The notes under the pieces were generated by a model. That model was not told the origin of the DNA, made no database searches, and saw only the letters and a program-made list of their open reading frames with translations. Of a DNA stretch of 32,463 bases, positions 13,067-19,678 are shown one piece after another. Source of the stretch: Candidatus Lambdaproteobacteria bacterium (GTDB lineage Bacteria > SAR324 > JACQKK01); contig JACQHH010000084.1 of assembly GCA_016199125.1 (NCBI GenBank), positions 1-32,463 on the forward strand, read 5' to 3'. Each line of letters starts with the position of its first letter. Position 1 is the stretch's first letter. Both the position numbers and the translations under genes were made by a program.

Positions 13067-13199
13067 GGCGGGGTTCCCGTTGGGGTGGGTGCGCTGCGGG
13101 AGGGACGCCACCGGGCGACATGCTCCGGCCGCCGCCCGCTGCACGTCCATCCTCTCACGACCGCCTTGACTTTGCCAGCGCGCGCCGGTAGCTGTGGGG

Positions 13200-13408
13200 A
13201 CGTTGGGTGCCCCCTTGAAGAGGGGTTAAAAGGGAATGCGGTGCAATGCCGCAGCTACCCCCGTAACTGTGAGCGCCATTCGGACCTGCCGCATCGGCCA
13301 CTGGGACTGACAAGCCTGGGAAGGCCGGCGGGTCGCGCGCAAGCCAGGAAACCTGCCCGACATTCGACTTCGGTAATCCTTCGGAGGGAAGGAAGAAGCA
13401 CCCACCGG
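13200..13408 (+). ncRNA. Cobalamin (AdoCbl/B12) riboswitch
   Basis: Core 'aaaagggaatgcggtgcaatgccgcagctacccccgtaactgtgagc' plus the B12-box 'agccaggaaacctgcc' (13342-13357); closing P1-like stem TGGGTGC (13204-13210)/GCACCCA (13398-13404). Confidence 0.93.
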
Positions 13409-13595
13409 TGTTGTCAGCGCCGGTTGCCCAGCAGATTCGCGGTTCCCTCGGTCCGATTACCCTGTAGGCGGCGCGCTCCGTGCGCGACCCCGGCCGCATC
13501 CGGTCCCGGTCGTGCCTCCGCGGGCGCCGCCCGACGCGCCGCCGTGCGGCGGGTGGGCATCGAGCCCCTCGCCGGCGGCTAAGCGCAGGCGCGGG

Positions 13596-14912
13596 ATGGA
13601 TGCGATGCAGGGCCGCGGCAGCACGGGATTCGGGTCGGGGCGCGCCGGGCGATGGGCCGCGGCGCCGCTGCTGGCGCTTGTGCTGGCGGCGCTGGCGCTG
13701 TCCGCCTGCGACCAGGTGGAAAGTTGGCTGGAGCAGGCGGCCGGCGAGCCCGCGCGCAGCGACCCCACGGGCCAGGTGTCGCAACCGCCGGCCGCGGTGC
13801 CCTCCGGCCCGCAGCTTTACTGCATCGCCAACATCGGGCGCACCATCGTGGTCTACAGCCTGGCCGAGCGGCGGGTGCTGGGCGACACGCGGCGGGTGCT
13901 GCATTCCGACCCCGTGGGGCCCTGGTTCGCCGGCGGCCAGGGCTATTACCTGTCGCGGGTGGCCGGAGACGGCTCGGGTCAGAACGCCCTGCTCCGCTTC
14001 GATCCGGTGACCCTGGCCCAGACGGGGCGGCTGAGTTTTGCCCCCAACTCCAATCCCGTAACGCTGCTGGTGCATCCGCAGGGCGGGCTGGCCTACGTGG
14101 CCCTGGCCGGCTCGTCCTTCGACAATTTCGCCACCAACGGGCTGGCCGTGGTGTCTTTGCCGGGGCTGAGCCTGTTGAGCTTTCTGGACCTGAACGCCGC
14201 GACAGTGTATCCCCCGGGCCACACGGGCGCCCGCTGGACGTCACTGGACGGGCTGGCCTGGGACGACGCCTGCGCGCTGGGGCCGTGCCTGTACGCCGTG
14301 GCCAACAACTGGAACGGGGTGCTGCGCGCGGGACGGCTGCTGGTGCTGGCGCTGGATGGCGTGGGCCTGCCTTCCATTGCCGATGCGATTGCCCTGGGCA
14401 TGAGCCCGCAGGGCGCGCCGTTGCTGGATGATCCGGACGATGGCTCCCGGCCGCGCAGCCTGTGGGTGGTCAACAACGGCGGCTACCTGGACTTCGGCGG
14501 GGAGCCCGGCACCCTGCAACGGCTCGACCCGGCGCTGTTCGCCGACGACACGCCGGACAACGAGACCCTGGCCCTGCTCACCTCGGCCAATACCTCGCAG
14601 CTTCCCGCGGACCCCACCGGCATCTTCCGCTTCAATGGGGAGCGCGCCTGGATCACCAGCTATCCCGACGACGTGGTGGCCACGCTGGAGCTGGACACGG
14701 CGACGCTGGCGCCGCTGGACGCCACCCTGCCGCGCATCACGGGACCGCTGTTTTCCACCACCGACCCGGCTCCGGCGCTCTTTGCCGGCATGGGCGGCTA
14801 TGGGCCGGCGGCCCTGGGCGAGCTGGATACGGCCGGCGGCGCGCTGCTGGCCACGCACAACCTGGGCGCCGGCAACGGCGGCCTGACCTGCGCCGAATAC
14901 GTCGTGCCCTGA
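13596..14912 (+). CDS. Lipoprotein with predicted beta-propeller (YncE/BtuG-like architecture) under the B12 riboswitch
   Basis: Lipobox LALSAC after a hydrophobic signal; repeats such as LYCIANIGRTIVVYSLAERRVLG, ALLRFDPVTLAQTGRLSF, VTLLVHPQGGLAYVALAG, GLAVVSLPGLSLLSFLDL, VVATLELDTATLAPL. Confidence 0.75.
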   Translation: MDAMQGRGSTGFGSGRAGRWAAAPLLALVLAALALSACDQVESWLEQAAGEPARSDPTGQVSQPPAAVPSGPQLYCIANIGRTIVVYSLAERRVLGDTRRVLHSDPVGPWFAGGQGYYLSRVAGDGSGQNALLRFDPVTLAQTGRLSFAPNSNPVTLLVHPQGGLAYVALAGSSFDNFATNGLAVVSLPGLSLLSFLDLNAATVYPPGHTGARWTSLDGLAWDDACALGPCLYAVANNWNGVLRAGRLLVLALDGVGLPSIADAIALGMSPQGAPLLDDPDDGSRPRSLWVVNNGGYLDFGGEPGTLQRLDPALFADDTPDNETLALLTSANTSQLPADPTGIFRFNGERAWITSYPDDVVATLELDTATLAPLDATLPRITGPLFSTTDPAPALFAGMGGYGPAALGELDTAGGALLATHNLGAGNGGLTCAEYVVP

Positions 14913-15011
14913 GACACAGCGGCGCGGTGCCGCCGGGCAGCCTCGGCCTGGCACAGCCGCCGCCACGGGCCGCTTGCACCGTGAGCAGTTGATTTCAAAG
15001 GAAGGGACACC

Positions 15012-16151
15012 ATGAACCAGACTGCAAGGCATTCGACCGGCACCCCGAGAAGCGTTCCGAGGCGCCCGCGTTTCCCCCGGTATGCAGTGATCGCGCTGGC
15101 CGTGCTGCTCCTGGCCGCCTGCGCCGGGGAAGACAAAAAGAAGGAGGAGGCGACCACGCCGGCGACCACGCGCATCTTTGCCAACCGCGTGATCGATTAT
15201 GCGCCGGGGACGCTCGTGATCAACAGCGGCTTCAACGGCCAGACCCCGGGGAGCTACAGCGATGATTTCGGAGGTACACACGTCATTTCATTAACCGCGT
15301 GGATCACGGACTATCCGGGTTTTGGTGCGAGCTCGACCGAGATCGTCAGCTACGACAATGCTCAGCGCGTTCTGATCGGCTTGGCGAGTGAAGGCAACTA
15401 CTCCCGCTTCGATTGGACACTGTTTCAGGACAACCTCTACTATTGCCAGAGCTACCCCTACGTTGCGAGTGCCGACGAAGCCTCCGCGCTGCCGCGGGCA
15501 GATAATACCGACCCTACGGCGAGCGGCTGCGGCGGCTTCTCCTGGACAGGGCTGGGGCCGCCTGCGTGGTCGTACTTCTTTTCCCCCGACCGCGCCCTGG
15601 GCGCACCCGGCGACTACACTAGCGTCGTTTCCCTGGGCTATGTCCCGGCAGGAACGGATGCGCCGGGCGGTGCGCTGGTATTGGGCTTGGGCGCGGCCGG
15701 CGACCCCGCGCAGCGGGGCTGCGCAATTGACGGCGTAGGCGACGATGTGGCCGTCTACGAGAATCCGTTCGTCACGAGCGATGCCGACAGCATCAGCGGC
15801 ACCAACAACGAAGTGGCGACCGTGGAGTTTTCCACCGACAATGCCACTTGGTACGAATATCCCCATGACGCGACGCTCGATCCCGCCAAACCCCTGATCG
15901 ACCGCACGCGTTATGTAGGATTCGCCGGGGTGACGCCGACGAGCGAAGGAGGCGACCGCTTCGACTTGGCGCTGCTGATTGCCGAGCACGCGCTGTCGGC
16001 CGACTTCAATGCCTGTTACGTGCGCATCACCGATGGCGGCACACGCTGGGTCGACTACGGCAACACCCAGAGCGACCTGTTTGCCTCCGGCGCGGACATC
16101 GACGCCGTGGAGGCGCTACACTACGAGGCCGACGCGACCCTGGCGCCATGA
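15012..16151 (+). CDS. Surface lipoprotein with 'ALG.P....VSLG...GALVLGLG...VYENPF' module and inserted domain
   Basis: Lipobox VLLLAAC; C-terminal half homologous by eye to ORF 17281..18474 (shared VSLG/LVLGxG/VxEN/GFAG/GGDxFDLA/ACYVKI/GADIDAV). Confidence 0.75.
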   Translation: MNQTARHSTGTPRSVPRRPRFPRYAVIALAVLLLAACAGEDKKKEEATTPATTRIFANRVIDYAPGTLVINSGFNGQTPGSYSDDFGGTHVISLTAWITDYPGFGASSTEIVSYDNAQRVLIGLASEGNYSRFDWTLFQDNLYYCQSYPYVASADEASALPRADNTDPTASGCGGFSWTGLGPPAWSYFFSPDRALGAPGDYTSVVSLGYVPAGTDAPGGALVLGLGAAGDPAQRGCAIDGVGDDVAVYENPFVTSDADSISGTNNEVATVEFSTDNATWYEYPHDATLDPAKPLIDRTRYVGFAGVTPTSEGGDRFDLALLIAEHALSADFNACYVRITDGGTRWVDYGNTQSDLFASGADIDAVEALHYEADATLAP

Positions 16152-16194
16152 GCGCCGGGGCGGCGGCACACGAGGCACCAGCCGGGGGATCGGC

Positions 16195-16890
16195 ATGAGC
16201 GCACGGCGCAAGATCGTGCTCTCTTGGAGCGGGGGCAAGGACAGCGCGCTGGCGCTGCACGCCCTGCGCCAGGCGGGCACCTGGGAGGTGGTGGCGCTGC
16301 TGACCACCGTGGCCGAGCCCTACGGACGCATCAGCCACCATGGCGTGCGGGCCGAGCTGCTGCGGGCCCAGGCCGAGGCCCTGGGCGAAGCCCTGCACGT
16401 GATCTCGCTGCCCGACCCGTGCAGCAATGTTTTGTACGAGGAGGCCATGGGCCGGGCCATGCGGGCCTATCGCGAGGCGGGCGTGGAGGCCGTGGCCTTC
16501 GGCGATATCTTCCTGCAGGACCTGCGCGACTATCGCGAGCGCAACCTGGCGCCGGTGGGGCTGGGGGCGGAGTTTCCGCTGTGGGGCCAGCCCACCGGGC
16601 CGCTGCTGCAACGCTTCCTGGCGCTGGGCTTTCGTGGCGTGCTGGCCTGCGTGGATGGCGCCAAGCTGACCCGCGACTTCGCCGGGCGGGCCATCGACAC
16701 GGCGCTGCTGGCCGACCTGCCGCGCGGCGTGGACCCCTGCGGCGAGAACGGCGAATATCATTCCTTCGTGTGGGACGGCCCCATCTTCAAGCGGCCAGTG
16801 CCGGTGCGCGTGGGCGAGATCGTACAGCGGGACACGCGCTTCTTTGCCGACCTGCTGCCCGCGGCTGGGCCAGGCGCGTCCGATGCCTGA
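16195..16890 (+). CDS. DUF71/COG2102 (Dph6-like) ATP-pyrophosphatase, bacterial B12-linked subgroup candidate
   Basis: KIVLSWSGGKDSALALHAL (PP-loop), LLTTVAEPYGRISHHGVR, AFGDIFLQDLRDYRE, FPLWGQPT, DLPRGVDPCGENGEYHSFVWDGPIF. Confidence 0.9.
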   Translation: MSARRKIVLSWSGGKDSALALHALRQAGTWEVVALLTTVAEPYGRISHHGVRAELLRAQAEALGEALHVISLPDPCSNVLYEEAMGRAMRAYREAGVEAVAFGDIFLQDLRDYRERNLAPVGLGAEFPLWGQPTGPLLQRFLALGFRGVLACVDGAKLTRDFAGRAIDTALLADLPRGVDPCGENGEYHSFVWDGPIFKRPVPVRVGEIVQRDTRFFADLLPAAGPGASDA

Positions 16891-16935
16891 CCCGGTGGGC
16901 TGACGCCCGCCGCGGCGCGTGCCGGGAGCGTTCTA

Positions 16936-17078
16936 CAGGGCAACCGCATTCTAGCCGCTGCCCTGCCATCGATGTCACCCTGAGCAGAGCGAAGGGTCTC
17001 GTTCTGCTGAAATCATTGAGATTCTGAGCGCCGTAGTGCGGCGCTCAGAATGACGTGCGTTAGCATGCGGTTGCCCTG
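16936..17078. repeat. MITE/interspersed-repeat-like element: 14-bp terminal inverted repeats around an internal hairpin
   Basis: CAGGGCAACCGCAT (16936-16949)/ATGCGGTTGCCCTG (17065-17078); internal ATTCTGAGCGCCG-TAGTG-CGGCGCTCAGAAT (17021-17051); contains 'GTCACCCTGAGCAGAGCGAAGGGTCTC', a motif resembling widely dispersed bacterial repeats. Confidence 0.65.
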
Positions 17079-17280
17079 GGGCGTTCCGCCGGCGCCGTTT
17101 TTTCCCCAGGCCGCCCCGTGCTATGATGAATTCCCATGGAAACAGTTGCTTAGGGCCACGGCGGCACGACCTTTGCCATGCGCGGCAACGCGCGGGGTCG
17201 CCTTGTGCCGCGTGATGCAAGTGTCACGGATCGTGCGGCGGGCCGCCGCGCGCGAGCCCAAACCGGCAGCGGGAGCCGCC

Positions 17281-18474
17281 ATGCCAGAGACCGATCGAAC
17301 CCGGCGGCCGGGTCGCGCGGGTGCTGCGCCTCCCGCCATGCCGCGGGACCGCAGCGCCCACCATTGGCGCCGCCTGGCGCTGGCGGGGCTCGCAGCGCTG
17401 CTGCTGGGCGGCTGCGTGGTGGGGACGCAGGAGGATGCCGCCACATCGAGCGACGAGGCCTTCGGCGTGGCCGGGAGCACGCCGGCCAATGGCACCGCGC
17501 TGGTTGACGTCTCCACCGCCCGCGTCGAGGTGGAATTCACCACCGACCTGGCCACGTCCTACAGCGCATTCACGGCCGTCTCGGAGCAGGTGGCCGCGCT
17601 GCTGACCCTGGAGGACGTCACGGACGAGGACGCACCGCTGCCCGTGCGCTACCGCATGGAATACATCGTCTCGCTGCAAACCTTGCGGCTGACTCTGGAG
17701 CAGCCCCTGGTGTGGGCGCACGTCTACCGGCTGACCCTGGATGCCATGTTCAGCGCGTACACCGGTGCGACCCTGGGCAGCGACGTGCTCGTCACGTTCA
17801 CCGCGGAGCCCATGGCCTTTGACGGCGAGGTGTTCGCGGACCGCGTGGTGGTCTACGCGCCGGTGCTGCCCACGGGGGAAGCCGACGGCGCCGGGTATTT
17901 CATCCCCCAGGCGGCGCTGGGTCCGCCCCGCGGCGCAAAGCACGTGGCGTCCCTGGGCTTCGACAAGATCTCCCTCACGGAAGGCGGCTTCCTGGTGCTG
18001 GGCTTCGGCGACGGCACGGAGCGGCGGTGCATCGTGAACGATGACGGCACGGATTTCACCGTGGTGGAGAATGCCGCGCCGTTCCAGGGCTCGTCCAATG
18101 TGTTCACCGAGGCGGCCTACGTGGAGGTCTCGGAGAATGGCACCGACTTCCACCGCTTTCCCGCCACGCCGCCGGTGGACCCGGCCGACGTCGGCCTGCC
18201 CGCCGCCTGGAGCGGCTTCGCCGGCATCCACGTCTACGACCCGGAGACGAGCACGGGCGGCGACGAGTTCGACCTGGCCGACGTCATCGTCGCGGCCGGC
18301 CTGCCCGCGGATTTTCAGGCCTGTTACGTGAAGATCGTCGACGCCGGCGCAGGGGTGCCGGACGCGGCGTTCCCCGTGCTGCTCATCAGCCCGGACAAGG
18401 GCACCGGCGCAGACATTGACGCCGTGCTCGTGCCGGCCGGGCACAGTGTCGCCGCGCCCGGCCTGACGGATTAG
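17281..18474 (+). CDS. Surface lipoprotein, paralog of 15012..16151, with an N-terminal Ig-like (Big_5-like) domain
   Basis: Lipobox LLLGGC; STPANGTALVDVSTARVEVEFTTDL... Ig-like; C-terminal ALGPPRGAKHVASLGFDK...GGFLVLGFGDG...FTVVEN...GFAGIHVYDPETSTGGDEFDLADVI...ACYVKIVDAG...GADIDAV. Confidence 0.75.
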   Translation: MPETDRTRRPGRAGAAPPAMPRDRSAHHWRRLALAGLAALLLGGCVVGTQEDAATSSDEAFGVAGSTPANGTALVDVSTARVEVEFTTDLATSYSAFTAVSEQVAALLTLEDVTDEDAPLPVRYRMEYIVSLQTLRLTLEQPLVWAHVYRLTLDAMFSAYTGATLGSDVLVTFTAEPMAFDGEVFADRVVVYAPVLPTGEADGAGYFIPQAALGPPRGAKHVASLGFDKISLTEGGFLVLGFGDGTERRCIVNDDGTDFTVVENAAPFQGSSNVFTEAAYVEVSENGTDFHRFPATPPVDPADVGLPAAWSGFAGIHVYDPETSTGGDEFDLADVIVAAGLPADFQACYVKIVDAGAGVPDAAFPVLLISPDKGTGADIDAVLVPAGHSVAAPGLTD

Positions 18475-18618: not shown

Positions 18619-19104
18619 TTGCAGCAGGAGCAGACCGTGAACCGAGCAGCTCACCGCCTTGTGAACATGACCCGCAATGCGCCGGGAGCGGGGCTTCCCC
18701 TGGGTGCGCTGCTGCTGGCTGCGCTGCTGCTGATGGGGCTGGGCAATGGCGGCGACGCGACGCGCAGCAACATCCCCGTCCCCGAACGCAACTACACGGT
18801 CACCATTGCCGACCGCCAGGGCCGCAGCCTGGAAGCCGAGCGCTTCACCTGGGAAGGCAAGGTGTTCTTCAAGGCCAACTTCGGCGCCGCGGCCGTGACG
18901 CTGCCCTTCGAGAAGCTCTCCGAGCTGACCTTGCAGCACCAAGCCGATGCGGGCAGCCCGGAGCTGATCGCCGCCAGCGCCCTGCTCAAGACCGGCGAGA
19001 CGGTGCAGGTGACCCTGGAACGCACCTCCAAGTGCTTCGGCACCACCCGCTTCGGCGACTACGAGATCTTCATCAAGGACGTGGGCAGCATCAAGTTCAA
19101 GTAG
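18619..19104 (+). CDS. Small exported hypothetical protein
   Basis: 161-aa ORF with internal hydrophobic segment LPLGALLLAALLLMGLG and a beta-rich C-terminus; start codon uncertain (GTG/ATG alternatives). Confidence 0.6.
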   Translation: MQQEQTVNRAAHRLVNMTRNAPGAGLPLGALLLAALLLMGLGNGGDATRSNIPVPERNYTVTIADRQGRSLEAERFTWEGKVFFKANFGAAAVTLPFEKLSELTLQHQADAGSPELIAASALLKTGETVQVTLERTSKCFGTTRFGDYEIFIKDVGSIKFK

Positions 19105-19336: not shown

Positions 19337-19425
<89 letters not shown>

Positions 19426-19455: not shown

Positions 19456-19678
19456 GTCGCCCCCGCGCGGGGGCGTAGATTGAAACTTCGACTACCCCGG
19501 CGGGGCTACCGCGCCCGTTCCGGTCGCCTCCCGCGCGGGGGCGTGGATTGAAACGCCGATACCAGCTCGCGCATCCGTTCCGGCCGCTGGCTCCCCCGCA
19601 TGCGCGGGAGTAGACCCACCTCCTTGGCGACCAGCAGGCTTTCGCGGCCGGCTCCCCCGCATGCGCGGGTATCGACTC
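19456..19678 (+). CRISPR. Degenerate CRISPR relic with two I-C-like repeats followed by two I-E-like repeats (3 spacers), no cas genes in the window
   Basis: R1 19456-19486 GTCGCCCCCGCGCGGGGGCGTAGATTGAAAC; R2 19523-19554 GTCGCCTCCCGCGCGGGGGCGTGGATTGAAAC; R3 19589-19617 GGCTCCCCCGCATGCGCGGGAGTAGACCC; R4 19650-19678 GGCTCCCCCGCATGCGCGGGTATCGACTC; spacers of 36, 34 and 32 nt. Confidence 0.85.

Follow-up and report, generated by a model that had tools for sequence, protein, structure and literature searches.

A riboswitch-led locus of lipoproteins and a DUF71 protein in SAR324, a probable module for corrinoid capture and salvage

What does a cobalamin riboswitch control when scarcely any of the genes behind it is recognisable as a vitamin B12 gene? 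The question is raised by contig JACQHH010000084.1 of a Candidatus Lambdaproteobacteria bacterium (GCA_016199125.1), analysed over its full 32,463 nucleotides (the window), where such a riboswitch precedes genes for a predicted beta-propeller lipoprotein, a second and a third acidic lipoprotein and a DUF71 PP-loop ATPase. An earlier note on this DNA, made from the sequence alone, had proposed a proteobacterial surface module that binds cobamides, feeds a distant BtuB and relies on DUF71 to modify the salvaged corrinoid. The host belongs to SAR324, a separate phylum in GTDB, and is no classical proteobacterium. That label apart, the locus is most probably a B12-repressed module for corrinoid capture and salvage, akin in its working to the BtuG/BtuH system of Bacteroides. 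The window genome (G000, window contig C42) is a metagenome-assembled genome of 2.98 Mb in 238 contigs at 73.5% completeness, and the comparison set comprised 52 genomes, the class and phylum sets being identical. Positions are those of the window unless another locus is named, and the principal features are as follows.

13188..13374, plus strand: cobalamin riboswitch aptamer RF00174 (cmscan 112.8 bits, E 9.3e-28)
13596..14912, plus strand: acidic lipoprotein, predicted beta-propeller of the YncE/BtuG type, lipobox LSAC (AlphaFold2 model, Foldseek, orthologues behind RF00174)
15012..16151, plus strand: lipoprotein 2, a two-domain acidic lipoprotein, lipobox LAAC (homology, domain and profile searches)
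15240..15554, plus strand: N-domain, LIC13354-like, lying within the C-domain (NCBIfam NF047669 E 6e-7, residues 33-189; profile search)
15570..16127, plus strand: C-domain, LIC13355-like (profile search; seven genes in 52 SAR324 genomes)
16195..16890, plus strand: DUF71 PP-loop ATPase with the signature CGENGEYH (PF01902 E 1.6e-29; motif)
17338..18474, plus strand: lipoprotein 3, the third acidic lipoprotein, with a weak Big_5 Ig-like domain and a C-domain, lipobox LGGC (lipobox and domain searches)

The riboswitch had been called a textbook example, and the Rfam scan bears this out, with RF00174 covered over the full model (1-189) at 112.8 bits against a gathering threshold of 31.5 bits. It is the sole copy found in a whole-genome search of the 73.5% complete assembly, and it ends 221 nt before the likely start of the propeller gene. 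The predicted RNA fold of the region 3' of the riboswitch is not stabler than that of shuffled sequences (z -0.45), and it singles out neither a terminator nor masking of the start site as the mechanism. All four same-strand genes reported behind it are present, with two starts corrected from the first reading: the propeller open reading frame (ORF) opens at 13512, yet its lipobox fits a start at 13596, and that of lipoprotein 3 opens at 17050, yet its lipobox fits a start near 17338. The start codon of lipoprotein 2 has AAGGAAGGGACACC just 5' of it. Gaps of 100 nt and 44 nt separate the propeller gene from lipoprotein 2 and lipoprotein 2 from DUF71, and the three lipoproteins, each bearing a lipobox, have net charges of -21, -31 and -37. 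The first reading did not mention that lipoprotein 2 is homologous to lipoprotein 3 in the C-terminal half of the latter (39%, 187 aa, E 2e-21). In lipoprotein 2 the N-domain (residues 77-181) interrupts the C-domain after its first conserved piece, ANRVIDYAPG. The Big_5 match of lipoprotein 3 (E 0.0045) lies under the cut-off.

The tie of these genes to B12 is carried chiefly by their conserved context. The propeller gene occurs in four of the 52 genomes, belonging to four genera of one family, and is absent from the rest; in all four it stands directly behind RF00174 (G000 C42, G001 C89, G003 C169 and G007 C203), at gaps of about 180-550 nt, the G007 gene being split between two contigs that share a 33-nt overlap with a single mismatch. 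The orthologous proteins of the locus are 42-53% identical among the four genera, and the arrangement is therefore old. A profile search of the phylum recovered seven C-domain genes in six genomes, five of which also have N-domains, and a cobalamin riboswitch precedes each of the seven, of class RF00174 in G000, G001, G003 and G007 and of class RF01482 in G045 and G047, that of G047 just below the cut-off (47.9 against a gathering threshold of 50 bits, E 2e-7). The riboswitch and the C-domain gene of G003 are on different contigs, taken as adjoining from gene order and the tRNA rather than from an overlap. When five closer C-domain sequences were used as a profile against a wider genome collection, three loci only were returned, all in genomes already known.

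The two genomes with RF01482 belong to another family of the class, and in them these domains occur beside B12 uptake genes in independent arrangements. In each, the riboswitch is followed by a lipoprotein with four tandem N-domains, a BtuB-like TonB-dependent receptor and a C-domain protein of the choice-of-anchor U type (loci L020 5961-11380 and L021 3433-8755), with BtuF-like or ABC-transporter genes near the operon. By a rough estimate, chance would give such placement in both independent families with a probability of 10^-5.8. A survey of neighbourhoods for BtuB thus finds the receptor in one operon with the N- and C-domains in these genomes, and beside DUF71 in a further one (G050). All gene types of the locus have strong support for a tie to B12 in a context that several genera share, and the lipoprotein domains and DUF71 in addition stand with BtuB in independent arrangements.

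The DUF71 protein was placed in the predicted B12-salvage subgroup, and both the PF01902 match and its signature uphold that placement. Its sequence CGENGEYHSF has ENGE(F/Y)H instead of EGGE/DxE, and ENGE(Y/F)H is the signature of the DUF71-B12 subgroup (de Crecy-Lagard et al. 2012; PMC3541065); variants of the motif are found in all seven SAR324 DUF71 homologues examined. The clustering of the subgroup with B12 transport or cbiB genes is not seen in the window but is seen in G004, where RF00174 is followed by DUF71 and DUF6580 on a contig also bearing TonB and a receptor, and in G050, where RF00174 is followed by BtuB and DUF71, adjoining CobT/CobU/CobA-like ORFs (named by reading the ORFs). 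For the DUF71 genes of G003, G007 and G009 and a second copy in G004, there is no cobalamin riboswitch on the stretches examined. The protein resembles the DUF71-B12 subgroup (COG2102) in being a PP-loop ATPase with ENGE(Y/F)H and a link to B12 uptake genes in relatives, and differs from the described cases in standing among putative capture lipoproteins behind a riboswitch rather than beside btuCDF or cbiB (PMC3541065).

The remainder of the genome shows a need for the cofactor and a candidate for its uptake. A full B12-dependent methionine synthase, MetH, is present along with a second B12-binding protein, and the host, which needs B12, apparently does not make it: G005 and G006 have CobS, but a search found none in G000-G004 or in G007-G009. 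Across the phylum, all propeller genes are in genomes that lack a CobS match (4/16 against 0/36, Fisher p 0.007, a figure confounded by kinship). The absence of obvious B12 genes holds for the window, in which no btu or cob gene was recognised, DUF71 apart, but not for the genome. Contig C48 carries a TonB gene followed by a BtuB-like TonB-dependent receptor with plug and barrel, a candidate for the distant BtuB that had been anticipated. Orthologues of this receptor (42-47%) lie on contigs with RF00174 in G003, G004 and G007, and these riboswitch-linked orthologues argue for a BtuB role. Contig C48 begins just upstream of the TonB and receptor genes, so that a riboswitch ahead of them may have been missed by the assembly.

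Fold comparisons bring the lipoproteins near to, and not into, the known capture families. The AlphaFold2 model of the propeller (five sequences, pLDDT 69, pTM 0.75) resembles YVTN/YncE-type propellers in the PDB by Foldseek; among the matches listed, BtuG chains come first by target-length TM (0.63-0.69, with YncE at 0.64-0.65), and by E-value they rank fifth and eighth. Six of the seven best matches of the propeller profile to PDB sequences are BtuG-type chains, with BtuG at the top and 3DSM (apo-BtuG2) included, at a non-significant E of about 1, and the protein matched no Pfam or NCBIfam family. For the model of lipoprotein 2 (pLDDT 74, pTM 0.67), the sole PDB match with E <0.001 is 8blw_B, the chain of BtuG1, itself a BtuG-BtuH fusion (E 1.5e-4). 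Both results support the fold and offer hints of kinship, short of proof. The likeness to BtuG that had been suggested is thus retained for a predicted propeller on a lipoprotein, acidic and under a cobalamin riboswitch, and lost for sequence, in which there is no significant similarity; the SAR324 protein also differs in phylum, in length (about 400 against about 330 residues) and in not lying beside btuB. BtuH, with Ig-like domains and a C-terminal B12-binding domain, may be echoed by the order of an Ig-like and then a C-terminal domain in lipoprotein 3 and by the top PDB fold match of lipoprotein 2, but neither matches it in sequence, and lipoprotein 2 has a second domain inserted in its C-domain. 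The jelly-roll B12 binders BtuJ/DUF4465 are likewise beta-rich lipoproteins of B12 operons, differing in that no DUF4465 match occurs here. None of the three domain profiles had a significant match in PDB sequence searches. Two assignments were accordingly dropped: classical BtuG membership, since there is no significant homology and no receptor was recognised beside the propeller in the window, and DUF4465 (BtuJ) membership, since lipoproteins 2 and 3 have no Pfam DUF4465 match.

Whether the riboswitch governs one unit of four genes depends on the stretch that follows DUF71, which holds two further features.

16936..17078, no strand assigned: MITE-like element, its ends inverted over 18 nt, with an inner perfect hairpin of 13 bp (17021-17051); diverged copies elsewhere
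17080..17096, plus strand: terminator-like GC hairpin with a T-run, a possible operon end after DUF71 (five sites of this kind in the region, where chance would give 3.2)

Elsewhere the genome has diverged copies of the repeat (68-84%), on contigs C119, C200 and C60. Since this element with its hairpin and the terminator-like site precede lipoprotein 3, that gene may be a separate transcription unit, outside the transcript that the riboswitch leads.

Several observations weigh against a capture module. The possible terminator sets lipoprotein 3 apart, and no B12 transport gene was recognised in the window. In sequence the propeller does not match BtuG significantly (best profile E about 1), nor do the lipoproteins match BtuH or BtuJ, so that sequence does not place them in the BtuG and BtuH families. 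Escherichia coli YncE is nearly as near to the propeller model as BtuG, and the TM of lipoprotein 2 against 8blw is low (0.31/0.18), BtuH2 alone not being among the matches listed. By the E. coli rule, the propeller lipoprotein, having Asp at +2, would be retained at the inner membrane. The receptor on C48 falls far below the BtuB equivalog cut-off (TIGR01779, 79 against 600 bits), and the absence of CobS rests on an assembly 74% complete.

These points leave room for other explanations, of which the least improbable is that the riboswitch governs B12-related envelope genes whose lipoproteins do not bind the cofactor, and instead act on the receptor as stabilisers or gates, help to release vesicles, or have cobalt or some other molecule as their ligand. 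There is precedent in BtuL and BtuK2 from B12 operons of B. thetaiotaomicron, which do not bind cobalamin, BtuL having been proposed to act in vesicle release (PMC12751083), and the second-tier fold matches of the C-domain are discoidin/CBM32-like. This reading is nonetheless unlikely, since three distinct lipoproteins, one with a propeller like BtuG and one with an Ig-like and a C-terminal domain like BtuH, suit capture better, and since all three are strongly acidic, as is the capture face of BtuG2. It is less probable still that the riboswitch rules the first gene or genes only, with DUF71 and lipoprotein 3 as unrelated neighbours. The hairpin and repeat 5' of lipoprotein 3 would agree with it, as would the different genes that follow the propeller among relatives; DUF71, however, starts only 44 nt after lipoprotein 2, bears the B12-subgroup motif and stands behind cobalamin riboswitches elsewhere in the phylum, and in G007 the orthologue of lipoprotein 3 directly follows the propeller. 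An orphaned riboswitch that happens to lie ahead of ordinary lipoproteins would explain why DUF71 is the only B12 gene recognised in the window, but chance of this kind is hardly credible and was dropped, being contradicted by a context that four genera share, with proteins 42-53% identical, and that recurs in another family.

In the preferred reading, that of a capture and salvage module, low cellular cobalamin would leave the transcript downstream of the riboswitch on, and the propeller and C-domain lipoproteins would be made, anchored in the envelope, presumably at the outer surface, and bind scarce corrinoid. They would then pass it to the BtuB-like receptor encoded on contig C48 beside the TonB gene, and inside the cell the DUF71-B12 protein would work on the corrinoid so salvaged, its probable target being the nucleotide loop of non-native cobamides.

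Lipoproteins that capture B12 at the cell surface are known chiefly from gut Bacteroidota. Going by this locus, SAR324 may meet the same need with protein families that lack both a Pfam entry and a B12 annotation, and a predicted DUF71-B12 enzyme here stands among putative capture genes of the envelope that a riboswitch controls directly; no study of B12 lipoproteins or riboswitches in SAR324 was found in the literature. It also supplies a first functional hypothesis for the N- and C-domain families, not earlier linked to B12, and may serve as a marker of B12 scavenging in environmental genomes. The nearest named relatives of these domains are Leptospira LIC_13354 and LIC_13355 (NF047669, NF033170), which weakly and separately match the N-domain and the C-domain at significant E-values and under the family cut-offs (29.8 against 130 bits and 29.9 against 120 bits). 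The two Leptospira loci are consecutively numbered and together up about 3.7-fold in host-adapted cells (PMC3953431), and one of the families has been studied as an adhesin that binds laminin and plasminogen, with no B12 link reported (PMC11891782); the btuB riboswitch of Leptospira is located away from both. A bolder reading, possible rather than probable, would make the propeller and the N/C-domain lipoproteins unrecognised corrinoid-binding families that form a BtuG/BtuH-like system outside Bacteroidota, reached by very deep divergence or independent recruitment, in which case LIC_13354 and LIC_13355 would be cofactor capture proteins and not primarily adhesins.

The surroundings of the locus are conserved as well, and two features on its 3' side deserve a place here.

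18619..19104, plus strand: 161-aa conserved protein with a hydrophobic N-terminal stretch (orthologue 48% over 123 aa; no Pfam match)
19337..19424, plus strand: tRNA-Ser(GGA), a conserved landmark 3' of the locus

Upstream, a hydrolase, a glycosyltransferase, an HD-domain gene and DHPS are neighbours common to G000, G003 and G004, and G004 has its riboswitch in this setting too, at the end of a contig. The 161-aa protein may belong to the locus, its orthologue in G001 being directly 3' of that of lipoprotein 2. DUF6580, sought as an inner-membrane partner, was found in G003, G004 and G008 and not in the window genome; this membrane protein, a candidate B12 transporter, is encoded on cobalamin-riboswitch contigs with TonB/ExbBD/receptor genes (L056 12314-12922, L057 2677-3165 and L063 5104-5787). 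The tRNA-Ser(GGA) gene lies downstream of the locus in G000, G003 and G007, and near it, at 19462-19676, are spaced palindromic repeats of about 28-33 nt with a spacing of 60-68 nt, resembling a short degenerate CRISPR array.

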